From positions 1 through 64,000 of the forward strand of contig NZ_LUJK01000001.1 in NCBI RefSeq assembly GCF_001601825.1: a stretch of DNA of 64,000 bases. Direction: 5' to 3'. This document shows, in pieces, positions 27,897 to 56,812 of the stretch. The first letter of the stretch is position 1; each line of letters starts with the position of its first letter. Position numbers and translations under genes: made by a program. The notes under the pieces are model-generated. The model worked only from the letters and a program-made list of their open reading frames with translations. It was not told where the DNA came from and searched no databases. Source of the stretch: Limnobacter sp. CACIAM 66H1 (lineage in GTDB: Bacteria; Pseudomonadota; Gammaproteobacteria; Burkholderiales; Burkholderiaceae_B).

Positions 27897-29159
27897 TTAT
27901 TGCCTCAGGTAGCTGGCTGCTTGGCGTTGCGCCAGTCGAATCAAATCGCCTTGCACAATCGATACATCAATCAGGTGAAGTCCCCAATTCGATCCGCCAA
28001 TGAATTCACCGGGATAGTCGTCCGCACGAGGGTCGTCCGGATCGGCCACGATACTCGCTTCAAGATAACTGACACCATTGGGCCCAACCTTGCATTGTCC
28101 TTTCACCTGCCCTGGCATGGAGTAGTAAGGGGTGGGAATGGTGAGATTGCTGATCGGATTCGCGTAGGGGCCGCCAGGCCCACGTGGAATCAGTAATAAA
28201 CGAAACACCGGTGGCTGCTGGCGAGGCACAATCGGAAACAAATCTGCGGGTCCGCCTGCCAGTGCTGCGGGGTTTGTGCAAAGCGCTTGTTGCCCTTCTT
28301 CAGCACTTAAACCAAAGCGCGGGTTTTCAAGTTGAGGGTCGCCAGCGCGGTAGGTGACATAGGCCACCACGCAGCCCAGTTGGTCGGCATCGCGACAAGC
28401 GGGTACCTTTTTAAACGATCCGCCCACATCGAGACCCTTGGGCACCAGTACATTGGTGCCAGGGATGTGCGCGGAAATGAAACGGCTCATCAACTCGGGC
28501 CGGGTTTCAATTTCTTCAGCAATCAGTCTGCGTAAAATGCCTGATCCCTGTGAGTGCCCCACCAATATAAAACCGCGTCCTTCACTTTGGTTGGCGATGT
28601 ATTCCTTGAACGCATCCAGTACATCGGCATAGGCCACTTCACCGGCATTCGGTGCAATGTCGATACCGCCCAGTGCACCCGTGAATGTGGTCAGGCCCAG
28701 CGCGGTCAATGTGCGCTGTCGGTAAACGGGTGCGAATTGCCTGCACACTTCGCCATAACGGCCAAACTGTAGAGCAGTGGTTTGTTGTTCTTGCAAATCG
28801 TCATTCAAATCTGAGTTGCCCATCAGGTCGATGCTGGTGGTTGGATAGACGTAGAAACAATCCACTTGGGGCGCTGTGGCAGGTGCGTAGCTGAGTGTGG
28901 TAGCAGAGGCATCGGCGGCCACTGCGGTGCTGTCAAAGTTGCCGTTACACACGTTGCTGGTCCCCATCAAGTCGGGGTGACACAACCAATTGCTGGTGCC
29001 GGTGTACAGGGTGCTCTGATAGCCCGGGAAAGGGTTGCTGGTATTGGCGGCACTTGCGCCCACGCGTGCGCTCGTGCTGCCTGTATTGCTTGAGTCGCTG
29101 CCGCAGGCTGACAACAGCAGTGATACTGTTACAACGCCGAACAAAAATTGATGAATCAC
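27897..29159 (-). CDS. DUF3089 alpha/beta-hydrolase lipoprotein
   Basis: 420 residues with a lipoprotein signal (lipobox LLSAC) and a lipase-like core: strand VDCFYVYPTTS, the nucleophile elbow GHSQGSGIL and later HxPG segments. DUF3089 proteins are serine hydrolases of unknown substrate. The start is a GTG at 29159 with GGAGAAG before it; it overlaps the ceramidase stop by four bases, so the two are translationally coupled and probably act on the same substrate class outside the inner membrane. Confidence 0.85.
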   Translation of the reverse strand: MIHQFLFGVVTVSLLLSACGSDSSNTGSTSARVGASAANTSNPFPGYQSTLYTGTSNWLCHPDLMGTSNVCNGNFDSTAVAADASATTLSYAPATAPQVDCFYVYPTTSIDLMGNSDLNDDLQEQQTTALQFGRYGEVCRQFAPVYRQRTLTALGLTTFTGALGGIDIAPNAGEVAYADVLDAFKEYIANQSEGRGFILVGHSQGSGILRRLIAEEIETRPELMSRFISAHIPGTNVLVPKGLDVGGSFKKVPACRDADQLGCVVAYVTYRAGDPQLENPRFGLSAEEGQQALCTNPAALAGGPADLFPIVPRQQPPVFRLLLIPRGPGGPYANPISNLTIPTPYYSMPGQVKGQCKVGPNGVSYLEASIVADPDDPRADDYPGEFIGGSNWGLHLIDVSIVQGDLIRLAQRQAASYLRQ

Positions 29160-31606
29160 AATCTTCTCCCGTCACCGCAGGTGGCCCCAGTGGCCGTGAC
29201 ATCAAATGCTTCGCTGACCCCTTCAAACTCCTCTGGCGTTCCAGCCGGCACCGCCACCCCACGGTGCTTGATTCGATATTTGCCCGCCGGCGTGTTGGCG
29301 GGAATTTTCCATTCCGCCAAGGCAGTGGATACAAAGCCGGGCAGGGGAACCGGGCTGAGGTAAGGTGTGGGCTCGAAGGGCTGCCAGCGGAAAATCAGTT
29401 CGGGTGAGCGGTCGTGTGTGAAACTTTCCCACTCACCTTTCGCATTCATTCGCTCCACTTCCACAATCGCCAAGCCGCGGGTTTTCATATTGCGCGGATG
29501 AGCGCTTTGAAATTGTGCCGTCACCGTGTTGCCGGCCGCCACCGTGGGTGTGGGTTGGGTCAATACATCGCCAAATGCGGCACTGGGGGCCTGGTCAAAG
29601 GGCACATAGGGTGGGCGGGGAATCGGGTTGCTGGTCACTGTGCGGGGTGGGCCGGCAGGTGGTTGGTTTTGCTGGGCCAATGACAGAGCCAGCCTGCGGC
29701 TTTCCTGTTGCACGGCGGCCAGCGTCCAGGGCCCAAATTGCGTGGAGGCGCCCTCATATTGCTGAATGGAATATTCTTCGCGCGTGGTCAGATAATTGAC
29801 AAAATCATTGCTCAGGCCACTGATGATCACTTGGTCAATGCCTTGTGGCTCCAACACTTCCAGCACGGTTTGACGAATGCGCCGTCCGGCCATGGTGGTA
29901 ATTTCCCAAGGCAAGCCCAACACTGCCACATTGCCAATGGTGAACAACTGAAATGGCAGCACATTGTTACTGAAGTTCAGGGGCGGGCCGAGTACAAACA
30001 GCACAGGTTTTTCAGCCTGACAGCTTAAGCTGGTGCCCGCCGGTATGGCGTCAAAGGGCAGGTCGTTCAAATTGCACAGCACGGCAGTCGCCAATACTTC
30101 CGGTGGCAGTTTGCCTGCGGCCAGCGCAGCCAGGTCGCGGGTGAGGCGGGCCGGGTCGGTGCGGCCGTTGCAGCTTGCACCTTCCACTGTGGGTCCGGGG
30201 CCGTCTTCAGCGCCTGCTCCAAACGACACGCCCATGGCGGCGGTGCAGGTTTTTTTCACGGCGCTGTTCAGCGATTCAGGGTGGCGCAGTGAATTCAGCA
30301 CCACGGGGTCTGTAATTTCCACTTCGTCCATCTTCACGTGAAATTGTGCGAAGTTCACGCCACCACGCACCATCTGGTTGGCGTCACGATACAAGGTGAG
30401 CGCGCGTGCCAGTTGCTTGCTGCCGTTGATTTCCACAGCCTTCAATTCGTCGGTGGAACCACCACGTTCTTCAAATGGTTTGTCTTTGAAGAATATATTC
30501 GGACTGCTGTCACCTTCATCGGTTTGCGCAAATGCAGCCACGAATGTGTCTTTCCCCGCAGGTGCTTCGTATTGCGTGCCCATGAGTTTTTCAAAGGCCA
30601 ATGCAGCCCAACCTTTGTTGTCTGAGGAAATCAATGGATTGGTGTTCCCTGTGGTGGTGGGGTGCACACCAAACCAGTTGATTTGTCCGATGGGTGTGCC
30701 ATCGGCACGACGCAATTTAAGCAGCGCCATTTCCTTGTTCACATTCTGGCTTTCACCGCGCTGGTTCAAATACTGGTTGCGTTCTTCTTGCGGGTTTTGA
30801 TCGTAGGCAATCGCAGAGCGATTCACATTGGCATTCAACAGTTCACCATTGTTGACCAACAGGCGACCCGGTTCCGGGTTGGCCTGCAGGTTGGCATGTG
30901 CGCGTCGAATGGCCTCCACAATGCCGTCGACAATGAAGTTGTAAACCTCTTCGTCATGCCCTAAACGGAACGCATTGAACGCAGTGAAGTGCGCATAGCC
31001 ACCGGGCCCGGCGTGGGTGTGGGTGGCGTTCAGCATGATGTTCTGTTCGTTGTAGAACGGCGCCAATTGGGCATCTGCTGCCACCTTGTTCAAAACCCCT
31101 TGGCGCACAGCATGGAAAATCATGCCGAGGTCGTTGACCACATACACCACGCGATTGCCGTTGCAAGGCGAGCCGATCACATAAGCCCGGGAAAACTGCC
31201 GGGTGTGCAGGCCAAGGCTGGCGTGGGTGGGGCTCTCATAACCCATCATCACGGACCCCGCCGCGGGACCTGTGATGTCGACAATGCCCGTGCCCATGGT
31301 AAAAGCGGTGTTGTTTTTGCAAGCGCCACTGTTCAAACCTGTGCTGGGTTGAACATTGCGGTTCGGCTTGCTGGCTGGCGAAATGGAAGGGCTGTCTTGC
31401 CCCTCACCGATCAACAAGTTGGGGTCAGTCAGCGCACATTGCAAACCCGCGGTGTCGACAAACTCATTGTTGCCGGGGTTTTCATTGGGGTTGGTACGAC
31501 CATCGGTTTGGGCCAGATCGCTGCTTTCGCCCAGGCAGCCTGTCAAAGTGGCTGCAGCCAGCAAAACTGCGACAGCGCGTGTTGTGCGATACAAATGGAT
31601 GTTCAT
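29156..31606 (-). CDS. Neutral/alkaline ceramidase lipoprotein
   Basis: Hydrolyses the amide bond of ceramide to sphingosine and a fatty acid. The 816 residues carry a lipoprotein signal (LTGC) and a linker, then the NEUT/ALK ceramidase domain: GTGIVDITGPAAG start, zinc histidines in NATHTHAGPGGYAHF and NWFGVHPTT, and the nucleophile serine in DEGDSSPNIF, equivalent to GDVSPN of the Pseudomonas enzyme. The C-terminal third is the Ig-like beta domain (FQSAHPRNMKTRG). Bacteria of this kind usually lack sphingolipids, so the substrate is probably from eukaryotes or other bacteria. Confidence 0.88.
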   Translation of the reverse strand: MNIHLYRTTRAVAVLLAAATLTGCLGESSDLAQTDGRTNPNENPGNNEFVDTAGLQCALTDPNLLIGEGQDSPSISPASKPNRNVQPSTGLNSGACKNNTAFTMGTGIVDITGPAAGSVMMGYESPTHASLGLHTRQFSRAYVIGSPCNGNRVVYVVNDLGMIFHAVRQGVLNKVAADAQLAPFYNEQNIMLNATHTHAGPGGYAHFTAFNAFRLGHDEEVYNFIVDGIVEAIRRAHANLQANPEPGRLLVNNGELLNANVNRSAIAYDQNPQEERNQYLNQRGESQNVNKEMALLKLRRADGTPIGQINWFGVHPTTTGNTNPLISSDNKGWAALAFEKLMGTQYEAPAGKDTFVAAFAQTDEGDSSPNIFFKDKPFEERGGSTDELKAVEINGSKQLARALTLYRDANQMVRGGVNFAQFHVKMDEVEITDPVVLNSLRHPESLNSAVKKTCTAAMGVSFGAGAEDGPGPTVEGASCNGRTDPARLTRDLAALAAGKLPPEVLATAVLCNLNDLPFDAIPAGTSLSCQAEKPVLFVLGPPLNFSNNVLPFQLFTIGNVAVLGLPWEITTMAGRRIRQTVLEVLEPQGIDQVIISGLSNDFVNYLTTREEYSIQQYEGASTQFGPWTLAAVQQESRRLALSLAQQNQPPAGPPRTVTSNPIPRPPYVPFDQAPSAAFGDVLTQPTPTVAAGNTVTAQFQSAHPRNMKTRGLAIVEVERMNAKGEWESFTHDRSPELIFRWQPFEPTPYLSPVPLPGFVSTALAEWKIPANTPAGKYRIKHRGVAVPAGTPEEFEGVSEAFDVTATGATCGDGRRL

Positions 31607-34951: not shown

Positions 34952-36169
34952 CTAGGTGTTGGTAGGAAGCAGATTCTTGATTACCGACTCAGCCACACGC
35001 TGGTTCATGTAGCGGGGCACTGCGTAGGTGAACCGCGCCTCCGCAATCGCAGACTTGGCCACTGCTGGAATATCGGCCGCTTTCAGCGCTGCCAATTGGG
35101 TCGGGATTCCGAATTTTGCATTCATCTCGCGAATACGGGCGATGAAGGCGCGGGCCAGGTGCACATCGTCTGCCCCTTTGTCGCCGATGCCACATGCGCG
35201 AGCCAGGATGGCCAGGCGGTCGGCGCAGTTGGGCAATGAATAGTCCAGCACATGGGGCATTACAATCGCGTTGGCCAAGCCATGGGGCGTGTGGTAGAGA
35301 GCGCCAAACTTGTGGGCAATGCCATGCACATAACCCACTCCGGCTTGTGTGAAAGCAATGCCAGCCAGGTGCGATGCCCGTGCCATTTTCTGGCGGGCTT
35401 CGAGGTTGTTGCCATCGGCCACAGCCGTTTCCAGATATTTCATGATGAGTTGAGTGGCTTCCAGTGCCTTCTCGTCGGTTTTTTTCATGGCGTTTCGCGA
35501 CACAAAGGCTTCAACCGCATGTGTCAGTGCATCCATGCCGGTGGCTGAAGTGATGTGTGCAGGCAAGCCTGTCATCAGTGATCCATCCAATGCCGCGGCG
35601 GTGGGCAACAAGCGAATGTCCATGGCGGCTACTTTGCGTTTGTTTTCTGTGTCGCTGACCACTGCCGCAATGGTGACTTCTGCACCGGTACCCGCAGTAG
35701 TCGGCACAGCGAACAGGGGAATCATGCCTTTGTGCACCCGCAGCAAACCGGTCAGTTTCAACACGGGCTTGTTGTTCTTGGCGCGTGCACCAATCATTTT
35801 GGCGGCATCAATCGGGCTTCCACCACCCACGGCCAGAATGGCCTGACAGCCGTTTTCCATCAACATGCGGTAACCGGCTTCGATTTGCTCCACAGTGGGG
35901 TTGGGTTCAACACCGTCGTACACCACGTATTTCACGCCCTGGGTATCAAGCTCGGCTTTCATTTTGTCCAGCACGCCCAGTTTCACCAGTACCGCGTCTG
36001 TGACCACCAACACATTGCGGTGCCCTGCATCGGCCATGTGTCGAATCAAATCAAGCGAGGAGCCAGTCCCTTCGAACATGCGGGGCCATTTGAAGGGCAT
36101 TAGGGCAGTGACCACTTTGAAAATGGCCATGTAAATGCGAAGCGCGAACACTTCCAGTGCATGCAACAT
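34952..36169 (-). CDS. Iron-containing alcohol dehydrogenase
   Basis: 405-residue type III NAD(P)-dependent dehydrogenase. The nucleotide motif GGGSPIDAAK and the metal region with DALTHAVEAFVS and the HGIAHKFGALYHTPHGLANA histidines are intact. AGGAG precedes the ATG at 36169. It is divergent from the PQQ-receptor-like gene and near a PQQ alcohol dehydrogenase; exa-type alcohol loci of pseudomonads also include an iron ADH (ErcA), so a catabolic or signalling role in alcohol use is plausible. It shares the intergenic region holding motif site A. Confidence 0.9.
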   Translation of the reverse strand: MLHALEVFALRIYMAIFKVVTALMPFKWPRMFEGTGSSLDLIRHMADAGHRNVLVVTDAVLVKLGVLDKMKAELDTQGVKYVVYDGVEPNPTVEQIEAGYRMLMENGCQAILAVGGGSPIDAAKMIGARAKNNKPVLKLTGLLRVHKGMIPLFAVPTTAGTGAEVTIAAVVSDTENKRKVAAMDIRLLPTAAALDGSLMTGLPAHITSATGMDALTHAVEAFVSRNAMKKTDEKALEATQLIMKYLETAVADGNNLEARQKMARASHLAGIAFTQAGVGYVHGIAHKFGALYHTPHGLANAIVMPHVLDYSLPNCADRLAILARACGIGDKGADDVHLARAFIARIREMNAKFGIPTQLAALKAADIPAVAKSAIAEARFTYAVPRYMNQRVAESVIKNLLPTNT

Positions 36170-36246
36170 GCGGGTGTCTCCTAACTTTTATTGTGGGGTT
36201 AACAGTTGTTACTATGATTGTACAAAGAGTAGGCGGTGTAGAGGCA

Positions 36247-36269
36247 GAGGAAATATTCCACTTTTCTTG
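36247..36269 (+). promoter_or_regulatory. Alcohol-locus motif, site A
   Basis: GGAAATATTCC at 36249-36259 followed after two bases by TTTTCTTG. The same layout occurs before the PhaC-like gene (site C) and, less exactly, before exaA (site B). It lies 78 bases before the receptor start and also upstream of the divergent iron alcohol dehydrogenase. Probable binding site of the NarL-type regulator of this locus. Confidence 0.55.
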
Positions 36270-36346
36270 ACGATCGGGAAAATTTCACGAGCCGTTTCCG
36301 TCAAGCTTGCCGCACTGTTCACTACAACATTTCAGAGACACCGTTC

Positions 36347-38380
36347 ATGAAGCATCGCAGTACACCCTTGATTGCCGCTTTGGCCACTTTGGGCATGGCC
36401 TCACCTGCATGGTCACAAACCGAAAGCCTGGACACCTTCGTGGTCTCGGCCACCCGCGAGGCACGCGACCCGTTTGAGGTGCCAGCTTCGGTCGACAAGA
36501 TTAACCAGAACACTCTGGAGAAGGCGGCGAGCTTTCAGGTCAATTTGTCGGAAACGCTGACCCGTGTGCCCGGCCTTGTGATCAACAATCGCAACAATTT
36601 TGCGCAAGACCTTCAAATTTCAATTCGGGGTTTTGGGGCGCGGGCAACTTCGGGTGTCCGTGGTGTTCGTCTTTTCTCCGATGGCATACCCGCTACCATG
36701 CCGGATGGTTCCGGCCAAATTTCCCACTTCAGTTTGAGCTCAACCGAGTCAATAGAAGTGCTGCGCGGGCCGTTTTCATCCCTGTATGGCAATTCCTCGG
36801 GCGGCGTGATCTTGCTGACCACCGAAAACCCACGCGTGGGCACTGAGCTGGAGGTGAACCAGATATTTGGAACCGACAGCACCCGCAGAAGCGGTATCAA
36901 GCTGAACAAGGGCAATGAGGAGGTGGGCATTGTGATAGATGCATCCACCTTCCGAACGGATGGATACCGCGACCACAGCAAAGCGCGTCGAGACAATTTC
37001 AACAGCAAAATTGTGTGGAGTTTAAGCAGCGACACTCGCTTAAGCTGGGTTGTGAACTACGTGGATATTCCCCTGGCGCAAGACCCGGCTGGCCTGACTG
37101 CTGCGCAACTGGCCAGCAACCGCCGGCAGGCGGGCACCAACACGGTGGCCAACAACACCAACAAAACAGTGGAACAAAGCCAAACCGGTATTGTGCTGGA
37201 GCACAAGTTCAGCCCCAGCACCAATGTGACTTTCAGCCCTTATTACGGAGACCGGAAGATTCGCCAGGTGTTGGCCAGCACTGCGGTGATTGATTTGAAA
37301 AACGAATACAGCGGCGCTGATTTGCGATTTGGGCACCAAACCAGTCTGTTGGAAAGACCTTTGTTTTTGAATGCGGGCTTGACCGTCGGTGAACTGGAGC
37401 AGGCTCGTTTGGGCTTCTTTGGTGCCAGCACCACACCCAACCGGGATGAGGCCAACACGGCGAGCCAGTTCGATCAGTACTTGCAGGCGGAGTATTTTTT
37501 CACCGACAAGTTCAGCGTGCTGGGCGGGGTTCGAAATTCGTCCATCGAGATCGAATCCAATGATCAATTCTTGAGCAACGGCGACGGCAGTGGCAGCAAA
37601 AAGTACGATGAGGTCACCAGCAATGTGGGCCTCACCTACCGTTTGCAACCCAACATCAACACCTATATTTCTTATGGCGAAGGGTTTGAAACCCCCACCC
37701 TGCTGGAAACCGCGTATTTGTCGGTTGCACCACCCAGTCCAAACTTCAACTCCCAGCTGGAAGCCGCAAAAAGTGAGCAACTGGAAATCGGTGTGAAAGC
37801 CAAATTTGGTGGCACCTTGGTGAATGCGGCGCTGTACACGGTAGACACCGACAACGAGATCGTGGTGTTGGCTGCGAACGGTGGTGCCACCTCATTTCAG
37901 AATGCTGGTTCGACCAGTCGCGAAGGTGCGGAACTGGCCCTGCAACATGCTTTCAACAGGCAATGGCAAGCCAATGCGGCGGTGAATTACATTCGCGCTA
38001 CTTACGACACCTCGGTCAACAGCATTCAGGCCGGCAACAGCTTGCCCAGCATTCCGAAAAAAACCTTTTTTGGTGAACTGGTCTACAAGCCTTCAAGCCT
38101 GTATGAGGCAGCCACAGAATTGCGGTATGTCGACAAGCTGTTCGCCAACGATGCAAACGATGCCTTCGCCCCTTCCTACTCGGTGGTGAACTTGCGCGCG
38201 AGCAAGGACTGGCCTTTGAATGGTGGCTGGAATGTGCGCACTTATGCCCGTGTGGACAATGTGTTCGATAAGGAATACGTAGGGTCGGTGATTGTGAACC
38301 AAGGGGCAGGGCAGTTTTTCGAGCCTGCCAGCGAACGCCAGTACTTGTTGGGTATCACGGTCGGTTTGTCATGGAAGTAA
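36347..38380 (+). CDS. TonB-dependent receptor of the PqqU/YncD type (probable PQQ uptake)
   Basis: Outer-membrane transporter of 677 residues with a signal peptide ending MASPAWSQ and a TonB-box-like DTFVVSA. The plug carries NNRNNFAQDLQISIRGFG, GVRGVRLFSDGIPATMPDG and VLRGPFSSLYGNSSGGV, which closely follow E. coli YncD, now known as the PQQ receptor PqqU. The barrel ends RQYLLGITVGLSWK. The next gene is a PQQ-dependent alcohol dehydrogenase and no pqq biosynthesis gene is in the window, so PQQ import to supply that enzyme is a good hypothesis. No Fur box is seen; motif site A lies upstream. Confidence 0.85.
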   Translation: MKHRSTPLIAALATLGMASPAWSQTESLDTFVVSATREARDPFEVPASVDKINQNTLEKAASFQVNLSETLTRVPGLVINNRNNFAQDLQISIRGFGARATSGVRGVRLFSDGIPATMPDGSGQISHFSLSSTESIEVLRGPFSSLYGNSSGGVILLTTENPRVGTELEVNQIFGTDSTRRSGIKLNKGNEEVGIVIDASTFRTDGYRDHSKARRDNFNSKIVWSLSSDTRLSWVVNYVDIPLAQDPAGLTAAQLASNRRQAGTNTVANNTNKTVEQSQTGIVLEHKFSPSTNVTFSPYYGDRKIRQVLASTAVIDLKNEYSGADLRFGHQTSLLERPLFLNAGLTVGELEQARLGFFGASTTPNRDEANTASQFDQYLQAEYFFTDKFSVLGGVRNSSIEIESNDQFLSNGDGSGSKKYDEVTSNVGLTYRLQPNINTYISYGEGFETPTLLETAYLSVAPPSPNFNSQLEAAKSEQLEIGVKAKFGGTLVNAALYTVDTDNEIVVLAANGGATSFQNAGSTSREGAELALQHAFNRQWQANAAVNYIRATYDTSVNSIQAGNSLPSIPKKTFFGELVYKPSSLYEAATELRYVDKLFANDANDAFAPSYSVVNLRASKDWPLNGGWNVRTYARVDNVFDKEYVGSVIVNQGAGQFFEPASERQYLLGITVGLSWK

Positions 38381-38407
38381 GTTGAGTAAAGAGTGCATTG
38401 GTTTTTC

Positions 38408-38429
38408 GGGAATAAATCCCGGTTTACTG
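38408..38429 (+). promoter_or_regulatory. Alcohol-locus motif, site B
   Basis: GGGAATAAATCCC at 38408-38420 (core GGAATAAATCC), followed by GGTTTACTG, a looser version of the TTTTCTTG tail of sites A and C. It is about 105 bases before the exaA-like start. Confidence 0.5.
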
Positions 38430-38465
38430 CGGGAATTCTGCTCTGGAGAATACGGGGTGCTCTCC

Positions 38466-38517
38466 TTAATCTGAAACGAGTCCGAAAGAAGAGTCGGATT
38501 ACAACAAATCAGATTAA
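38466..38517 (+). promoter_or_regulatory. Nested inverted repeats in the leader of the PQQ dehydrogenase gene
   Basis: TTAATCTG (38466-38473) pairs perfectly with CAGATTAA (38510-38517), and inside it TCCGA (38481-38485) pairs with TCGGA (38494-38498). In RNA this would form one long interrupted hairpin just upstream of the AGAGGAGAG ribosome site, so it may stabilise or control the leader. It could equally be two protein sites. Confidence 0.45.
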
Positions 38518-38534
38518 ACAAAGAGGAGAGATCA

Positions 38535-40397
38535 GTGAGAAATTCAAGTTTTAAACTCAGCGCCCTGACGCTTGCTGTTGTCGCTGCAACAGCTGGCCTG
38601 GCGTTGCAGAGTGGTTCTGTGTCGGCCAAGTCAGGTGGTGTTACCTGGGAAGACATCGTCAACGATGAAAACACTCCGAAAGACATTTTGAGCTACGGCT
38701 TTGGGCCGAAGGCGCAGCGCTACAGTGCCATGACCGCGATCAATGACAAGAACGTGGCCAATCTGGTGCCAGCGTGGTCTTTCAGTTTTGGCGATGAAAA
38801 GCAGCGCGGCCAGGAAACGCAGGCCCTGGTTCATGATGGCGTTATTTATGTTACGGGTTCCTATTCCCGAATGTATGCATTGGATGCGAGAACAGGTGCA
38901 AAACTTTGGCAGTATTCTCATCGATTGCCTGAAGATATTCGACCCTGTTGCGACGTGGTCAACCGCGGGGCGGCCATTTTTGGCGACAAGGTTTTCTTCG
39001 GCACCTTGGACGCGGGCATTGTTGCGCTAGACAAGAAAACCGGCAAGGTGGCTTGGCGTGAAAAGTTCGAAGACCACACCGCTGGCTACACCATGACAGG
39101 GGCTCCCACCTTGGTGAAGGATCAAAAAACAGGCAAGGTACTGTTGATTCATGGTTCTTCCGGAGACGAATTCGGTGTGGTGGGCAAGCTCTACGCACGT
39201 GATCCGGAAACAGGCAAGGAAATCTGGATGCGTCCTTTTGTTGAAGGACACATGGGGCGACTCAATGGAAAAGAAAGCACTCCTACAGGTGATCCTCGAG
39301 CGCCGTCCTGGCCGGATGATCCGAACAGCCCCACTGGCAAAGTGGAAGCCTGGAGCCAGGGTGGTGGCGCTCCATGGCAGTCTGCCAGCTTTGACGTTGA
39401 AAACAATCTGATCATCGTGGGCGCAGGTAATCCCGCTCCCTGGAACACTTGGTATCGCACACCCAAAGGTGGAAATCCGCTGGAGTACGACAACCTGTAC
39501 ACCTCAGGTCAAGTTGCCGTAGACCCCAGCACGGGAGAAGTGAAGTGGTTTTACCAACATACACCCAATGACGCTTGGGACTTCTCTGGCAACAATGAAC
39601 TGGTTTTGTTTGAGTACAAAGATGGCGGCAAAACCATCAAGGCCACAGCACACGCTGACCGAAACGGGTTTTTTTATGTAGTGAATCGAGCGGACGGCAA
39701 ATTCATTCGGGGTGTGCCTTTCGTAGACGGCGTGACCTGGGCCAAGGGCATTGACCCGAAAACCGGCAGGCCGATTGAAGTGGCCGGGCAGCGTCCTCCT
39801 CCCCCGGAGCCAGGTCAGGATCGCGGCAAATCTGTTGAAGTATCTCCTCCGTTCCTGGGTGGCAAGAACTGGAACCCCATGGCCTACAGTCAGGATACTG
39901 GCTTGTTTTATATCGGCGCCAATCACTGGAAGGAAGATTACTGGACAGAAAACGTGACCTACAAGAAGGGGTCTGCGTATCTTGGTCAGGGGTTCAGGAT
40001 CAAGCGTATGTACGACGACCATGTGGGTGTATTGCGTGCCATGAATCCTGTTACAGGAAAAGTGATCTGGCAGCACAAAGAGAAGTTACCGCTTTGGGCC
40101 GGCGTCATGGCCACCAAAGGCAATCTGGTGTTCACAGGGACAGGCGATGGCTTCTTCAAGGCCTTTGATGCAAAAACCGGCAAAGAGCTTTGGAAATTCC
40201 AGACGGGTTCAGGAATTGTTTCCTCCCCGATTACTTGGGAAATGGATGGCGAACAGTACATTGGTGTGGCCAGTGGTTATGGTGGTGCAGTGCCACTTTG
40301 GGGTGGTGACATGGCCGAGCTGACCAAGCCAGTGCCGCAAGGCGGTTCATTCTGGGTATTCAAGCTGCCCAAGATGATTCAGCAAGCCTCGCGTTAA
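38535..40397 (+). CDS. exaA: PQQ-dependent alcohol dehydrogenase, calcium type (quinoprotein ethanol dehydrogenase)
   Basis: Periplasmic eight-bladed quinoprotein of 620 residues with signal peptide (ends SGSVSA). Against P. aeruginosa ExaA a constant offset of 33 recovers the calcium ligands Glu212, Asn299 and Asp349 (catalytic base, in [10 protein letters not shown]), and the vicinal disulfide Cys138-Cys139. The residue two after the catalytic Asp is Ser351, not the second Asp of lanthanide enzymes, so it should use Ca2+. The start is GTG 38535 with AGAGGAGAG. No c-haem domain is fused, and no cytochrome c550 gene (exaB) lies nearby. Confidence 0.93.
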
Positions 40398-40444
40398 TAC
40401 GACGTCAATTTTCCTCTCTTCATCCTGGAAGACGTTGTTGCTTA

Positions 40445-40489
40445 GGATGGGTTTGCTTTGCAGGGCAATCCCATCCGTTTTTCTTTTTT
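40445..40489 (+). terminator. Rho-independent terminator after exaA
   Basis: GGATGGGTTTGC and GCAATCCCATCC pair over 12 bp with one mismatch around an 8-base loop, followed by GTTTTTCTTTTTT. It starts 48 bases past the exaA stop and ends just before the next gene, which therefore needs read-through or its own promoter. Confidence 0.88.
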
Positions 40490-40500
40490 GGAATGACTCA

Positions 40501-41124
40501 ATGAACTCAATCAAGTGTTATGGATTGACAATAATGGCGGGGCTAATGGTTGCCGTGAATGTTCAAGCCTGTGAACTACAGCCCGGAAGCCACTGTAAAA
40601 ACGCCAACCTCACCGGCATGGATTTACGAAATATGGAATTGAGTGCGATCGATTTGTCGGGTGCGGACCTAAGGGGAGCGGACCTGCGGCATGCTGATTT
40701 GCGGGGGGCTAATCTTGAAGGAGCCAACCTGACTGGTGCCAATCTGACCAGGGCTGATTTGAAGCGCGCCAATTTGCGCAGAGCCGATTTTACCGATGCA
40801 ACATTAGATGCCGTGCAGGCTTACGCGGCTTTTGGTCAAGTAGCAAACTTCACACGCACGAGTCTGATAGCGGCTGATTTTTCGTTTGCCAGGGTTAATC
40901 GGGCCAACTTTACCGGTGCTAACGCACAGATGGCCAGTTTCGAGAAAGCCTGGATGGAGAAATGCAGCCTGGTGGATTCCAACTTCAACAATGCCAATTT
41001 GCAGGAAGCCAAAATGAATATGGTTGACTTTGATGGCAGCACAATAACAGGGGCCCGAATTCATTACGCCACGTTTCAGGATGCCAATTTTGAGGGTTGT
41101 ACTGGCTGCCCCGTGGGTTGGTAA
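40501..41124 (+). CDS. Secreted pentapeptide-repeat protein
   Basis: 207 residues from ATG 40501 with a signal peptide (MAGLMVAVNVQA). After a short cysteine-containing start (CELQPGSHCKNANL) come many A(D/N)LxX pentapeptides, such as ADLRGADLRHADLRGANLEG, interrupted at about residue 100 and resuming to the end, where CTGCPVGW adds two cysteines. The fold should be a right-handed quadrilateral beta-helix in the periplasm, with disulfides. Position between exaA and its probable regulators suggests a role with the dehydrogenase, but none is known. Its 3' end overlaps the convergent regulator gene by 49 bases. Confidence 0.82.
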   Translation: MNSIKCYGLTIMAGLMVAVNVQACELQPGSHCKNANLTGMDLRNMELSAIDLSGADLRGADLRHADLRGANLEGANLTGANLTRADLKRANLRRADFTDATLDAVQAYAAFGQVANFTRTSLIAADFSFARVNRANFTGANAQMASFEKAWMEKCSLVDSNFNNANLQEAKMNMVDFDGSTITGARIHYATFQDANFEGCTGCPVGW

Positions 41125-41750
41125 ACTTCAATCAACTGGAGACTCACTGCAAGGTGAGTCATCGCTGCTGTGGTGTCTACATTCAACTTCTGTTTGATAA
41201 TAGAAAGGTTGTTGGCGACTGTTTTTGCACTGAGATTCAATAGTTTGCCGATTTGTCTGGATGAATATCCCTTTGCAATCATCAGAAAAATTTCATTCTC
41301 ACGACCTGATAGTGTGGCGAGTGCGTTGCTTCCTGTGTGTTTTGAGCAAACAAGCCCGGTGGCCAGACGATGCTCAACATAGAATTCGCCCTCCGAAATT
41401 GTCCGAATCGCCCGGGCAAACTCTTCAGGTTCAGCTGATTTGCTGACGAAAGCGCATGCACCAAGTTTCATGGCACGACTCACCAGGCCAAGCTCATCGT
41501 GCATGCTGAAAAACATTACACGAGTCGCCGGTTGTCTGCGCAAAATTTTTGTTGCCAGATCCAGACCGGAGATGTCGGGGAGATTGACGTCAAGTACGAC
41601 CAGTTCGTGTCGTATTTCTGTCCACTTGAGCCAAGCTGATTGGGCGTTGTCCGCATGATCGATTTGCGCCAAGCCATTGCAAATCTGATTAATGATTTGT
41701 GAGTAGCTTTGACGAATTAGTGGATGATCATCAACAATCAAGTAATTCAT
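41076..41750 (-). CDS. NarL/LuxR-family response regulator
   Basis: 224 residues: receiver domain (VDDHP acidic pair, phosphorylation site Asp54 in VVLDVNLPD, and a conserved Lys in VSKSAEP) and a C-terminal LuxR helix-turn-helix (LSGRENEIFLMIAKGYSSRQIGKLLNLSAKTV). It overlaps its kinase gene by 20 bases and converges with the pentapeptide-repeat gene. Comparable EraR-type regulators control exaA in pseudomonads; I infer that it controls this alcohol locus, possibly through motif sites A-C. Confidence 0.9.
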   Translation of the reverse strand: MNYLIVDDHPLIRQSYSQIINQICNGLAQIDHADNAQSAWLKWTEIRHELVVLDVNLPDISGLDLATKILRRQPATRVMFFSMHDELGLVSRAMKLGACAFVSKSAEPEEFARAIRTISEGEFYVEHRLATGLVCSKHTGSNALATLSGRENEIFLMIAKGYSSRQIGKLLNLSAKTVANNLSIIKQKLNVDTTAAMTHLAVSLQLIEVYQPTGQPVQPSKLAS

Positions 41751-43032
41751 TCGAGTGTGCTCTCTGGTGTGTTTTGTGCAAATGCACGGTCACGCCCGTG
41801 CTGTGTTTTTGTATACGAAGACGTGCTCCAAGTTCTTTTGCCCTCACTTGCATAGAGCGAAGACCATAACCGGATTTCAACTCTTTTGATGAGACACCGT
41901 TGTCTTCAATTTTCAAATCGAGGTAGTCCCGAGTGTTGACCAAGCTCACGGTGACTTTATTTGCATTCGAGTGTTTGTAAATGTTGTGAAGGGACTCTTG
42001 GACAATCCGGATGATGTGTACTACTTCTTGTGCGACCAAGGTTATCGCTGGTGACACTTCACACGAGGCTTCAAGTTCACATTCAATGTAAGTGACTTGC
42101 ATCCATTTCATGCAAATCTGGTTCAAGGCCTCATTCAGGTTGACTGTTTGTAGATCCATTGGATCTAACTCGGTGATCAGATTCCGGATCACGCGGTGGG
42201 CCTCTTCCAGTTCGTCGGATACTGATTTCAGGGTCTCTAGACCAGAGGCTGACATCTCAGACTGAGTTTGAATGTTTAGTAAATAGACTCGGGCACGAAG
42301 ACCTGCGATTATCTGTCCCAGATTGTCGTGCAGTTCACTGCCAAGGCGTCTGCGTTCCTGTTCTTGAGAGTTAATCAGTGAAATCGACAAAGACTTATTG
42401 TCTTCTCTGGCTTGCTTGAGTGTCAGTGTGGTGGCATTGAATTGACGGGCTATAGCCTGAAGTTCCACAATCGGGCTGGTTTCAGGCAGCTTTGTTTCAA
42501 GGTGGCCATCGCGCATTTCTGTCATGGCGCGACTAAACTGACGCATTCGTTTAAGAACGTCATTGAGCCCAAACTGAATTAACGCGATGCACAAAAGTGC
42601 GGAGACAAGAAATACAAAAAATGTCGAAGTCAGACTTTCCCAGACTTCATCGAGCTCATCCTCCGGTGTGGCGTACACAGTCCACATCTGAACCGGGTCG
42701 AGGTGAATTGAATACTTTTGCCAATCACTGCCAACATCACCCAAAGTCCAGTTAGCCAGCCAGGAAGGCATGCTCACATTGAGGCTTTGATTCACCAAGT
42801 GCGGTGGCTGCGTTGAAATCCGGATGTGTCTGAACTGCAGATTTTTCGCCTCTTGCGCACCGATTCGGTCATATTCAATCAGCAGTGCCAGGCTTTTCGC
42901 GACATGCGTTGCGGATTCCAGTTCTTCTCGGATGTCATCCCTCGCTTGTATCACAATAAGACTGGCAGACAAAGCGAAGCCAATTGAGAAGGTCAGGGGA
43001 ACCCATATCAATGATCGTAGTGAGAATTTCAT
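41731..43032 (-). CDS. NarX/DegS-type sensor histidine kinase
   Basis: 433 residues from ATG 43032 (MKFSLRSLIW); the frame extends upstream, but a transmembrane anchor starts exactly here. Two membrane segments (about 8-29 and 170-192) enclose a periplasmic sensor region, followed by HAMP, HisKA_3 with the phospho-acceptor histidine in GSELHDNLGQIIAGLR, and a HATPase_c domain (N-box ESLHNIYKHSN, DNGVS, GYGLRSMQ). The periplasmic location suits sensing of alcohol oxidation or its products. It is cotranscribed with the response regulator. Motif site C lies 36 bases upstream. Confidence 0.9.
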   Translation of the reverse strand: MKFSLRSLIWVPLTFSIGFALSASLIVIQARDDIREELESATHVAKSLALLIEYDRIGAQEAKNLQFRHIRISTQPPHLVNQSLNVSMPSWLANWTLGDVGSDWQKYSIHLDPVQMWTVYATPEDELDEVWESLTSTFFVFLVSALLCIALIQFGLNDVLKRMRQFSRAMTEMRDGHLETKLPETSPIVELQAIARQFNATTLTLKQAREDNKSLSISLINSQEQERRRLGSELHDNLGQIIAGLRARVYLLNIQTQSEMSASGLETLKSVSDELEEAHRVIRNLITELDPMDLQTVNLNEALNQICMKWMQVTYIECELEASCEVSPAITLVAQEVVHIIRIVQESLHNIYKHSNANKVTVSLVNTRDYLDLKIEDNGVSSKELKSGYGLRSMQVRAKELGARLRIQKHSTGVTVHLHKTHQRAHSNELLDC

Positions 43033-43067
43033 GCAAATATCTTCGAATAAGCCGTGCGCTGACGCCA

Positions 43068-43089
43068 GGGAATATTTCCCGTTTTCTTG
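43068..43089 (+). promoter_or_regulatory. Alcohol-locus motif, site C
   Basis: GGGAATATTTCCC at 43068-43080, followed directly by GTTTTCTTG. It is the best palindrome of the three related sites. It lies between the divergent kinase and PhaC-like genes; the orientation of the TTTTCTTG tail points to the PhaC-like gene, as it does toward the receptor and exaA at sites A and B. Confidence 0.55.
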
Positions 43090-43208
43090 GACTCTGCTTG
43101 CCCACACAATGAGCTCGGCGGGATTTTTTAGAGACAGCACCCCAATCAATTCATTGGCGGCGCTGTTAGAATCTGACACACATAATTTTCACAATCAGGT
43201 TTGCCGCC

Positions 43209-44312
43209 ATGTCCACTGCACTCAGCCTTCGTCGAATCAGCCGCATGTCCAGCAACGGCTGGGATCGTTTGTTCAAATCAGAATCCATGGTTCGCGCTGG
43301 TTTGCAGCCGTTTGAAATCGTTCATCAAAGCGGTATTCACAGCGTTCGCCATTACCTGCCCTTGACTGAAGAAAGCATCACCGTGGGTGACGACACGCTG
43401 CCAGTGAGCAAAAAGCGCAACGCAATTCCGCTCGTGCTGATCGCACCCCTGGCCGTGAACATGTATGTGTATGATTTGCTGCCTGAGCGCAGTTTTGTTC
43501 GCTACCTGATGGCGCAGGGATTTGATGTGTACCTGATCGATTGGGGCAAGCCCACGCGCAAACAGGCTGGTTTAACTCTTGAGAATTACATCAAGGAATT
43601 TCTGCCCGCGTGCCTGAATGCCGTGCGTGAACACAGCGGTTCCAAAAAGCTCAATCTGCAGGGTTGGAGCATGGGTGGTGGCATGGCCTTGGCTTACACC
43701 GCTTTATTCAAAGACGAAAACATCAACAAAGTGGTCACCTATGGAACGCCCATCGATGGCCACGCCAATGGCGCCATCGGTCAGCAATACAAGCGCCTGG
43801 CACACTTGTTGAAGTCTGCGCGAATCAATTTCAGAAAGGTACCCGCCAAACTGTTGTACACACCGGGCTGGGCCAACGTGATCGGCTTTAAATTGCTCGA
43901 TCCAGTGGGTAGCCTGAAAGGTTACTGGAACCTGATTTCACAGTTGCATGACCGAGAGTTCGTGGCCCAGCATGCCAACCAAGCTGCATTTATTGACAGC
44001 CTGGAAGCCTACCCTGGTGGTGCATTGCGCGACTGGTTCGCCAGCATTTGGCTTGAAAATGAAACAGCGCACGGCCACTTCAAAGTGGGCAAGGCCGTGG
44101 CCAACTTCAAAGACATCACTTGCCCGGTGTTGGGGATTGCAGGCAAATCGGACAACCTGGCCAACGTAGCCTGCTGCAAGCCGATTACCAAGGTTGTTGG
44201 TTCGGAGAACTCCGAATTCTTCATCGGCCCGGGCGGCCATATCGGCATCATGAGCGGCAAGGAATCGCCCAATACCATCTGGGCGAAAACCGTGAGCTGG
44301 CTAAATAGCTAA
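43209..44312 (+). CDS. PhaC-like alpha/beta hydrolase
   Basis: 367 residues resembling class III polyhydroxyalkanoate synthases: PLVLIAPLAVNMYVYDLLPERSFVRYL, YLIDWGKPT, and a nucleophile elbow GWSMGGGMA. Real PHA synthases have cysteine in that lipase box; here it is serine, so a hydrolase or a different acyltransferase is more likely. The later acid and histidine positions (GKSDNLA, GPGGHIGI) are present. No phasin or phaA/phaB gene is near. Motif site C upstream suggests co-control with the alcohol locus. Confidence 0.78.
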   Translation: MSTALSLRRISRMSSNGWDRLFKSESMVRAGLQPFEIVHQSGIHSVRHYLPLTEESITVGDDTLPVSKKRNAIPLVLIAPLAVNMYVYDLLPERSFVRYLMAQGFDVYLIDWGKPTRKQAGLTLENYIKEFLPACLNAVREHSGSKKLNLQGWSMGGGMALAYTALFKDENINKVVTYGTPIDGHANGAIGQQYKRLAHLLKSARINFRKVPAKLLYTPGWANVIGFKLLDPVGSLKGYWNLISQLHDREFVAQHANQAAFIDSLEAYPGGALRDWFASIWLENETAHGHFKVGKAVANFKDITCPVLGIAGKSDNLANVACCKPITKVVGSENSEFFIGPGGHIGIMSGKESPNTIWAKTVSWLNS

Positions 44313-54214: not shown

Positions 54215-56812
54215 ATGAGCAAAACACTTCAGTCCGCGCTGGCGCTCAGCACGCTTGCGCTTCTTGCCGGTTGCCTGGGTGGCAACGATTCCAGCATTCT
54301 GGCTGGGGGTGATGGCCCCACGGTCACCAACCCCAACGAAGAGACGCCGGTCGAACTGGAGCCGGGGGATGGCATTCGTGTTTTGTCCAATCGTGCCGAC
54401 TTGATCAGCGACGGCAATGCCTTGGTTGAAATTACGGCCGAAGACCCTGCCAATTTGCAGAATGTCAAAGTGATGCTGGGCTCCGTGGATGTAAGCGACC
54501 AGTTTGCGCTGCGCGAAAATGGCCGTTACATGGGTCGCATTCAGGGCTTGGCCTTGGGTGAAAACCGCATCATGGCAGTGTTGAAAAACACAGGCCGAAT
54601 TGTGACCACCATCACCAATCACCCCAACGGTGGACCGGTGTTCTCCGGGCCGCAAGTGCAACCGTGGACCTGCACCAACGAGGGCACCATGGATGCCCAG
54701 TGCAATCAGCCGGCCGTGTTCAGTTTTTCATATCTGCCTGCCAACAAACTGCAACACGTACTCACCAACTCCAATTTCCAGGAACAGGAATTTGCACCCA
54801 CTTTCCTGCCATACGATCCGGAAAACCCACCGCCCGCCAGTGAAATTGCGATGACCACAACCGACAACGGTGTGACTGTACCCTTTATTGTTCGCACTGA
54901 ACGGGGTGTGCAAAACCGCGATCGTTATCAAATCCGCACACTGTTCAACCCGGCCGAGGATTGGCAACCGTGGAAGCCTCAGCCGCAGTGGAATGGCAAA
55001 GTACTGATTCACCATGGTGGCAACGTGGGCGTCACCTATGGTCCGGGCAATCCACCGAATGGTGACATTTCGGGTACAGCGCCAGACGGTGCGGAGTTTT
55101 TGCTGGGTGACAGCATTACAGTGGCTTTGGGGCGCGGCTTTATTGCCACCTCAACTGCCCTGGCCAATTTGGGGCACAACGTGAATCTGGTGACTGCCGC
55201 TGAATCGCTGATGATGGTGAAGGAACGGATTGTTGAGCAATATGGCGAAATCCGCTACACCATGGGCACAGGCTGCTCGGGTGGTGCGATTGCCCAGCAA
55301 CACATTGCCAATGCCTACCCTGGTATTTATCAGGGCATCATCGTGCAGTGTTCATACCCCGATGTCTGGACCACAGCCACTCAGTTTGCGGACTACAACC
55401 TGTTGAACTCCTATTTCGGCAATCGCTACCAAGGGGTGAATGAAGCAGACAATTCCCGCCAGTTTCCGCAATTTGCTCCCAACTTCCTGCCTTACGTGCA
55501 GTGGAGTGCCGTGTATGGGCATTTGCCAATCAACCCAGTGCTGTCGGACAACGCATTTTTTCCAAAAGCCTACCCATATGCCCAGAATTGTCGTGGCTTG
55601 AATGGCGCGGCCACGCCCTACGATCCAGTCAACAATCCGGGCGGTTTGCGTTGTGGTTTGATCGATTACATGAGCACCCAGTTTGGCTTCAGAACACCCG
55701 ATGTGTGGAGTGCCAACGAAAAGAAAATCGGACGTGGATTTGGTGGTATTCCCTTGGACAACGTGGGTGTTCAATACGGTTTGGGTGCCTTGAAGCAAGG
55801 CACCATCACAGCCGATCAGTTTCTGGACTTGAACCGCAATATTGGCGGTTTTGATGTGGACATTCAACGCGTGGCCAACCGCACCGTGGCGGACCCATTG
55901 GCTTTGGCCAATTCCTATAAAACAGGCGCGGTGAACACGGCCGAGCACCTCAGCAATATCCCGATTATCGACTTGCGGGGCCCCGATCCCGGCATTGCAC
56001 ACGATGCTTTCCACAGTTGGCAAATGCGCGCCCGTTTGAATGCCACACAGGGGCACTTTGACAACCATGTCATCTGGTTCGGGCAATTGGTGTTGGCCGG
56101 TGACTCCACCTACAGCACCGAGGCCTTGCTGGTGATGGATCGTTGGTTGAGTCAGATTGAGGCTGATGACAGCAACAAGCCACTGCGCGAAAAAGTAGTG
56201 GCCAACAAACCGCGCGCAGCCCGCGACAAATGCTTGTCAGCGCAAAGCATTTATGCAGATGACGGGCCTTTTGTTCCGCTCAGTGGTAACCTGTTTTATC
56301 CAGATCCCGTGTTGCCCATGGCCAACTCGAGCAGTATTCCGAAGCCACCTCCCGAGGCGGGTCAAATTTTTGATCAACTCAGCAATCAGGTGTGTGGTCT
56401 GGACTTCTCGGCTTTTGACGCCACGGGCATGTCGGGCCAACTCACCGGCCCCATTGCAGAGCTGCAACATGTCTTGGTGCAAACCCGGTTTGGCACACCG
56501 CGCACAGTGGCGGGTGACGATATTCGCACCCTCGCCAACAAATGCGTATTGAAGCCAGTGGATGCAGCCGACTATGCGGGGGTAATGTCCATCACCGACC
56601 CCGCAGCCTTTGTGGCCCAGGTGAAGGAAATTTTCCCGCAAGGTGTGTGCGACTATACCAAACCGGGAGTAGGTACACAGCCCACACAAACCTGGTTGCG
56701 ATATGGCACTGCCACCGAGAAGTTGATTGGCGGTACGCCGTTGCCGGCAAAGCCTGCCAACTCTCGCCAGGGGTGGTCAGCACCTGCTTTTAGAAATGTT
56801 AATTCACAGTAA
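54215..56812 (+). CDS. DUF6351-type large lipoprotein
   Basis: 865 residues with lipobox LLAGC near residue 20 and a short linker. An N-terminal Ig-like region (GDGIRVLSNRADLISDGNALVEI, about 50-140) is followed by an alpha/beta-hydrolase-like body with MGTGCSGGAIAQQHIA, whose GCSGG resembles the nucleophile elbow of tannase/feruloyl esterase relatives, and late WSAPAFRN. I recognise this as DUF6351. The substrate is unknown; a cell-surface esterase is the best guess. It has its own promoter gap of 121 bases, and a terminator follows. Confidence 0.78.
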   Translation: MSKTLQSALALSTLALLAGCLGGNDSSILAGGDGPTVTNPNEETPVELEPGDGIRVLSNRADLISDGNALVEITAEDPANLQNVKVMLGSVDVSDQFALRENGRYMGRIQGLALGENRIMAVLKNTGRIVTTITNHPNGGPVFSGPQVQPWTCTNEGTMDAQCNQPAVFSFSYLPANKLQHVLTNSNFQEQEFAPTFLPYDPENPPPASEIAMTTTDNGVTVPFIVRTERGVQNRDRYQIRTLFNPAEDWQPWKPQPQWNGKVLIHHGGNVGVTYGPGNPPNGDISGTAPDGAEFLLGDSITVALGRGFIATSTALANLGHNVNLVTAAESLMMVKERIVEQYGEIRYTMGTGCSGGAIAQQHIANAYPGIYQGIIVQCSYPDVWTTATQFADYNLLNSYFGNRYQGVNEADNSRQFPQFAPNFLPYVQWSAVYGHLPINPVLSDNAFFPKAYPYAQNCRGLNGAATPYDPVNNPGGLRCGLIDYMSTQFGFRTPDVWSANEKKIGRGFGGIPLDNVGVQYGLGALKQGTITADQFLDLNRNIGGFDVDIQRVANRTVADPLALANSYKTGAVNTAEHLSNIPIIDLRGPDPGIAHDAFHSWQMRARLNATQGHFDNHVIWFGQLVLAGDSTYSTEALLVMDRWLSQIEADDSNKPLREKVVANKPRAARDKCLSAQSIYADDGPFVPLSGNLFYPDPVLPMANSSSIPKPPPEAGQIFDQLSNQVCGLDFSAFDATGMSGQLTGPIAELQHVLVQTRFGTPRTVAGDDIRTLANKCVLKPVDAADYAGVMSITDPAAFVAQVKEIFPQGVCDYTKPGVGTQPTQTWLRYGTATEKLIGGTPLPAKPANSRQGWSAPAFRNVNSQ

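Follow-up and report, generated by a model that had tools for sequence, protein, structure and literature searches.

A GGGA-N5-TCCC palindrome as the candidate operator of a NarL-type regulator in an alcohol dehydrogenase gene cluster of Limnobacter

Introduction

The DNA considered here, referred to as the window, is a stretch of 64,000 nucleotides from Limnobacter sp. CACIAM 66H1 (contig NZ_LUJK01000001.1, positions 1 to 64,000). It contains a gene cluster around an exaA-like gene for a pyrroloquinoline quinone (PQQ)-dependent alcohol dehydrogenase, and three intergenic sites in this cluster, called A, B and C, carry similar palindromes. The locus raises the question of whether these palindromes are operators and, if so, which protein binds them and which promoters they serve.

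The answer that we consider quite likely, judging from sequence comparison, is that A, B and C are GGGA-N5-TCCC operators of the cluster's own NarL-type response regulator (41076..41750, minus strand), which would act by class II activation under the control of the membrane histidine kinase encoded next to it. Several promoters of the cluster share the palindrome, and it also lies beside related regulators in other bacteria, which argues that it is probably bound by the two-component regulator of the cluster. This regulator, already favored in an earlier note made from the letters of the window alone, is the likeliest binder on the comparisons described below.

The three sites and the definition of the operator

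The earlier note had placed the core GGAAWWWWTCC at 36249, 38409 and 43069, and the three core sequences are indeed found there. It had also counted a tail, TTTTCTTG, as part of the motif, and had taken from this tail a rightward polarity for all three sites. Comparison indicates that the motif needs redefinition and that the element is GGGA-N5-TCCC, a palindrome to which no strand is assigned. Sites B (GGGAATAAATCCC, 38408..38420, upstream of exaA) and C (GGGAATATTTCCC, 43068..43080, between the kinase gene and a PhaC-like gene) match all 8 half-site letters of this consensus, and site A (AGGAAATATTCCA, 36248..36260) takes the form AGGA-N5-TCCA. The tail is identical in A and C and differs at 3/8 letters in B.

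The genus is represented by 16 genomes, and apart from the host just one of them (G015) contains the regulator, at 86% identity, together with a closely similar dehydrogenase, at 98%. In 268 genomes of the family, for each of which the search scored the top candidates only, every match at E 1e-30 fell within this genus. The G015 cluster is syntenic with the window, and A, B and C are all recognisable at the same places (C as GGGAACAGTTCCC); the conservation in related strains whose lack would, according to the earlier note, have refuted its proposal is thus seen in G015, no other related genome with the cluster having been found. Over the three sites, the changed letters between the two genomes amount to 0/24 in the half-sites, 5/15 in the spacer and 9/24 in the tail. 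Because the tail differs in B and drifts in G015 while the half-sites stay, neither the tail nor a rightward direction is supported as part of the operator. The DNA around the sites is also conserved in part, at 84-89% near A and B and 74% near C, and therefore only the three sites taken jointly are telling (0.8^24 = 0.005).

The operator beside related regulators

The regulator carries a receiver domain (PF00072, 2.8e-24) and a GerE/LuxR-type DNA-binding domain (PF00196, 4.6e-12), and is therefore of the NarL/FixJ type; a sensor kinase gene lies next to it. Homologues at E 1e-38 are present in 20 of 399 genomes of the order, host included; 18 of the 19 other genomes (G599 was left out) and one Ideonella plasmid provided 19 regulator loci with a total of 289 kb. 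These contain 54 matches to GGGA-N5-TCCC, with at least one in each locus, and the enrichment is specific to the spacing: the same half-sites at spacings of 2, 3, 4, 6, 7, 8 and 9 gave 0, 5, 4, 1, 0, 4 and 5 matches. The permuted half-sites AGGG, GAGG and GGAG gave 7, 1 and 4 matches at spacing 5. Two further permutations, CACC and GGTG, reached 42 and 43 at spacing 5, yet their counts at spacing 8 were 38 and 34, a pattern that resembles a codon period. Many of the operator sites are located between a kinase gene and a gene the size of a TonB receptor. In two rounds of identification, ten neighboring proteins each were assigned. About ten matches fall within receptor reading frames and are probably coding coincidences.

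The putative recognition helix of these regulators is also shared. The pattern KT[VI]xN occurs in 39/40 regulators from these loci, the exception being an extra regulator in one of them (L176). The host genome encodes 8 NarL-type regulators at E 1e-8, and an operator lies within 1.5 kb of only two of them, namely the window regulator (helix KTVANNLS) and a second member of the subfamily, RR2 (KTVSNNLS). One other host regulator (L132) was excluded from the helix comparison by its length; among the five that were aligned, only the one on contig C57 has the KT[VI]xN pattern, and at a distance of 2.5 kb from it there is a related site, GGGAAGATTTCCT.

RR2 (C1:114546-115178) has its own kinase and a TonB receptor beside it (together C1:114546-119000), and its operator at C1:116421 lies between the genes for these two proteins, with the longest receptor frame beginning just before the operator. 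The 13-mer at C1:116421 is identical in G015 and in another genome, G001. The comparison thus points to a use of the operator that extends past alcohol genes to TonB-receptor promoters with related regulators, the host genome included. As a description of the motif, the "alcohol/PQQ regulon" of the earlier note is therefore too narrow, since relatives of the regulator linked to TonB receptors share the operator, one of them in the host genome.

Some further loci contain the operator near receptor genes. In the host, one at C37:17195-17207 is flanked by the gene of a putative Na+/H+ antiporter and that of a TonB receptor, for which FecA is the best NCBIfam match although the score is far under the cut-off, and its counterparts in G015 and G001 lie between similarly sized genes. 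Three loci (L096, L097 and L098) have regulator homologues 38-41% identical to the window regulator near PqqU-like receptors, together with several operators, and a PQQ-catabolism-like beta-propeller protein was identified in L098.

The operator and the type of PQQ alcohol dehydrogenase

The dehydrogenase of the window (38535..40397, plus strand; TIGR03075, 765.5 bits against a cut-off of 480) has a serine two residues past the catalytic aspartate (WDFSG), whereas a paralogue found throughout the genus, at C1:91652 in the host, has an aspartate at this position (WDYDG). We take this residue to distinguish calcium-type (Ca-type) from lanthanide-type (Ln-type) PQQ alcohol dehydrogenases, so that the host genome holds genes of both types.

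The presence of the operator largely follows this distinction. An exact operator was found no more than 500 bp from where the match begins at 16/22 Ca-type and 3/42 testable Ln-type genes (Fisher P 1e-7, an optimistic value because the loci are non-independent, several coming from one genus), and at 14/20 Ca-type genes when the window and G015 are removed. These counts refer to 65 covered loci, 64 of them testable, with 4 order-level matches lacking a locus and 98 of 106 plasmid records outside the count; the plasmids are 8 hand-picked from 20 records at 60-80% identity. Six control spacings gave no matches in the 22 Ca-type loci and 4 in the Ln-type loci. In the search of the order, all eight dehydrogenases at 70-74% identity are of the Ca-type, each with an exact operator that precedes the position matching residue 1 by 106-158 bp, and site B is the counterpart of the operators found ahead of Ca-type exaA genes elsewhere. 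Operator-bearing exaA genes occur in Azospirillum brasilense MTCC4039 (on a plasmid), Azospirillum sp. B510, Aquabacterium olei and Sphaerotilus sulfidivorans. Three Ln-type genes are exceptions in having an operator (L168 in G467, L193 in G814, and L188, at -416), and the G467 and G814 genomes also hold an operator-bearing Ca-type gene. Association of the operator with PQQ alcohol dehydrogenases in general was rejected, as Ln-type genes are mostly without it.

The operator at exaA elsewhere usually goes together with an adjacent kinase-regulator gene pair. In 7/8 order-level loci this pair is divergent from exaA and the pentapeptide-repeat gene, and in the eighth (L176) the two are separated by an 853-residue frame. 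The convergent arrangement of the window recurs in G797 and G814, whose regulators group with the window regulator (100/99) in a tree that contains many long branches and whose deeper order is unsure.

The Ln-type paralogue of the host (L064; G000 C1:91652-93358) and its counterparts in L054-L059, L061 and L065 are without the operator; upstream of most of them is GGCATGAAGCTTGCGC (TTGGCATGAAGCTTGC), which we presume to be a sigma54 promoter from its appearance. One additional candidate locus, matching at 31% over 69 residues, was too weak for use.

Promoter layout and proposed mechanism

At 10 loci with a Ca-type exaA gene, a second copy of the operator tends to follow at +22 from the first, with a mean of 6.2/8 matching letters (exact in 2 loci and at least 6 letters in 7), compared to a baseline of 2.1 letters (standard deviation 0.68) at other offsets. 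In the window, a degenerate second copy that is conserved in G015 (B2, GGGAATTCTGCTC, 38431..38443, no strand) follows 23 bp after B. A tentative second copy is also found 28 bp from A (A2, GGGAAAATTTCAC, 36276..36288, no strand; GGGAAATTTTCAC in G015).

Hexamers resembling a -10 element occur 23-24 nt past the operator edge on 11/56 gene-facing sides versus 5/54 other sides. Elsewhere in the range of offsets 10 to 45 the count is 0-2, except for 4 at 45, a number that a tandem site would give. The hexamer spacing would place the operator center near -43, which is the position of class II activators. On the minus strand, the putative -10 element of the iron-containing alcohol dehydrogenase promoter, TACAAT (36217..36222), is 25 nt from the edge of A, and both hexamer and distance are the same in G015. 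A weak putative -10 element of exaA, TAATCT (38467..38472, plus strand), lies after B2, 24 nt from the copy at +22, and is conserved in G015. Toward the PhaC-like gene there is a weak candidate, CACAAT (43105..43110, plus strand), 24 nt from C; in G015 it is unrecognisable at that distance. The earlier note had directed A toward a PqqU-like receptor gene, and on that side no -10-like hexamer is found at 23-25 nt. The layout thus fits the iron-containing alcohol dehydrogenase gene (A, minus strand) and exaA (B), fits the PhaC-like and kinase genes (C) weakly, and does not fit the receptor gene.

These features suggest a mechanism. The adjacent membrane histidine kinase would control the regulator, and a phosphorylated regulator dimer would occupy the palindrome centered near -43 and activate transcription in the class II manner; at exaA, a second dimer would probably bind 22-23 bp away. 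The sites, their conservation, their joint occurrence with this regulator subfamily and with Ca-type exaA, and the distances to -10-like hexamers are seen directly, whereas binding itself, activation rather than repression, the need for phosphorylation and the signal are what we infer from sequence. From B, the likely targets would be exaA and the pentapeptide-repeat gene; from A, the iron-containing alcohol dehydrogenase gene; and from C, the kinase-regulator pair and possibly the PhaC-like gene. The comparisons lend support to exaA, the kinase gene and the iron-containing alcohol dehydrogenase gene as targets, all three of which lie next to sites in the earlier proposal.

Points against the model and alternative explanations

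Several observations weigh against this model. Site A has only 6/8 consensus letters, the second copy at B matches 4 letters at +22 and 6 at +23, and the -10 candidates at C are weak on both the PhaC and the kinase sides. The dehydrogenase loci are, as mentioned, non-independent. The exact operator is missing at 6/22 Ca-type exaA genes: all four of those on Rhodobacterales plasmids, where the nearby regulators carry TVKAH or KTAAN helices, and those of L180, where an operator precedes the kinase gene instead, and of L183, which has near-operators at a distance of about 1 kb on the upstream side. In addition, GGGAAN4TCCC occurs at control level in the host genome (10 vs 10 forward, 6 vs 5 reverse), and RR2, of the same subfamily and genome, could bind the same sites.

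The last of these points leads to the alternative that survives best, namely that RR2 is the main binder of the sites and the window regulator has some other role. The recognition helices are nearly identical and RR2 has the same operator at its own locus. However, RR2 is also present in G001, which is without the window regulator and the close dehydrogenase, and hence it is not tied to the cluster; at exaA genes elsewhere, moreover, the operator usually comes with an exaA-adjacent kinase-regulator pair. We regard this alternative as unlikely. A second alternative, in which the palindrome belongs to a factor of another type, such as a global repressor, with the regulator a mere neighbor, is less probable still. 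The palindrome is short and symmetric, and its tie to the regulator is drawn from sequence, but it tracks the regulator subfamily across unrelated gene neighborhoods and is absent near 6/8 host NarL-type regulators.

The frequency of the motif bears on the possibility that the matches are chance similarities. In the window, GGAAWWWWTCC occurs at 4 places (7 strand matches) versus 0.40 matches expected from 100 shuffles; the fourth place, not mentioned in the earlier note, is a palindrome of the same form as A, B and C (AGGAAATTTTCCC, 56625-56637). Throughout the host genome (3.2 Mb in 108 contigs) there are 27 forward and 28 reverse matches, against 6 and 7 for the reversed control. The check for random occurrence that the earlier note had suggested goes partly against it, given the control-level frequency of GGGAAN4TCCC, which is also mostly not clearly over control in 10 other genomes scanned; therefore, frequency by itself is no proof. 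Two of the 12 genome places with GGGAAN4TCCC (B and C) lie in this 7.8-kb stretch, where 0.029 are expected (Poisson P 4e-4, for a stretch picked because of its sites). A search for tandem operators in 399 genomes found 9 sites in 8 genomes; the control yielded 15 in 5 genomes, one of which held 10, so that the numbers give no separation. The gap is exactly 9 in 7/9 of the tandem sites. Three of the nine are located at exaA (G323, G375 and G619), and in G416 two precede genes for TonB-type receptors; of the remaining 4, one is within a gene-like frame in L201 and three have no assignment from the family search. That the matches are functionless, as the control-level frequency in the host might suggest, is most improbable in view of the half-site conservation, the spacing-specific enrichment and the association with dehydrogenase type.

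Other genes of the cluster

The iron-containing alcohol dehydrogenase gene (34952..36169, minus strand) matches Pfam PF00465 and PF25137; an identification as ErcA was ruled out by the cut-off (297 of 550 bits). The TonB-dependent receptor (36347..38380, plus strand) is PqqU-like, though its 554.8 bits with NF041535 are far under the cut-off of 1200 for PqqU. The pentapeptide-repeat protein (PF00805; 40435..41124, plus strand), PedD-like by position, may have its true start at an internal codon. The sensor histidine kinase (41731..43032, minus strand) has HAMP, HisKA_3 and weaker HATPase_c matches, with the ATG at 43032 chosen as start over a GTG at 43179. The PhaC-like alpha/beta hydrolase gene (43209..44312, plus strand) scores 177.7 bits with TIGR01836 (cut-off 365). 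Elsewhere in the window, an 816-residue frame (29156-31606, minus strand) has a match to the neutral ceramidase family below the cut-off (325 of 1200 bits).

Relationship to known systems

In the open-access literature, as far as its text was available, no GGGA-N5-TCCC or other binding site was found for regulators of Ca-type PQQ alcohol dehydrogenases; the novelty of the motif is provisional, as Singh et al. 2017 falls outside this coverage. That study is cited (in PMC6115532) for control of exaA by sigma54 and a LuxR-type regulator in Azospirillum brasilense Sp7. The likeness lies in the LuxR-type control of a PQQ alcohol dehydrogenase, and the plasmid exaA of strain MTCC4039 has the operator.

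The closest described system appears, by analogy, to be PedS2/PedR2 of Pseudomonas putida, a homologue of EraR/ExaE of P. aeruginosa. It consists of a kinase with periplasmic and HAMP regions and a LuxR-type regulator that activates the gene for a Ca-type PQQ alcohol dehydrogenase (PMC6115532, in whose text the terms "binding site" and "motif" occur 0 times). The window has a comparable kinase, LuxR-type regulator and Ca-type gene, the host genome has an Ln-type gene elsewhere, and the pentapeptide gene of the window recalls PedD of the ped cluster (PMC12997753). A 2024 review states that how the PedH/PedE switch works is still unknown (PMC11845868).

CrbS/CrbR offers a parallel in promoter geometry. 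CrbR, of the LuxR family, uses an inverted repeat that spans -52 to -36, comparable to an operator near -43, and differs in that its targets are acetate genes (PMC5715377). The CrbR/ACTU motif was rejected as the same element, as the sequences given in that text (for example TACTACCATCGTCGAAT), compared by eye, do not contain GGGA-N5-TCCC. In DosR (DevR) of Mycobacterium tuberculosis, a NarL-family regulator, Lys179, Lys182 and Asn183 touch bases (PMC4082495). DevR is among the solved relatives of the window regulator (E 1.3e-17). The K and N of the KTVAN helix presumably match Lys179 and Asn183 of DosR. The DosR half-site is of the GGGAC type, and its half-sites are one base further apart than those of the window operator; DosR also answers to other signals and belongs to another phylum.

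A broader reading is more tentative, and we hold it to be rather less probable than not. GGGA-N5-TCCC and the KT[VI]xN helix might form one operator code of many proteobacterial NarL-type systems, and the palindrome might be the missing site of the regulators of the Ca/lanthanide dehydrogenase switch, marking the Ca-type gene (16/22) and, in G467 and G814, the Ln-type gene as well, with the uptake clusters of TonB receptors as sister systems. With a defined operator and its predicted location near -43, regulons of this sort could be predicted from sequence, and alcohol oxidation would be linked to a wider set of TonB-linked two-component systems.

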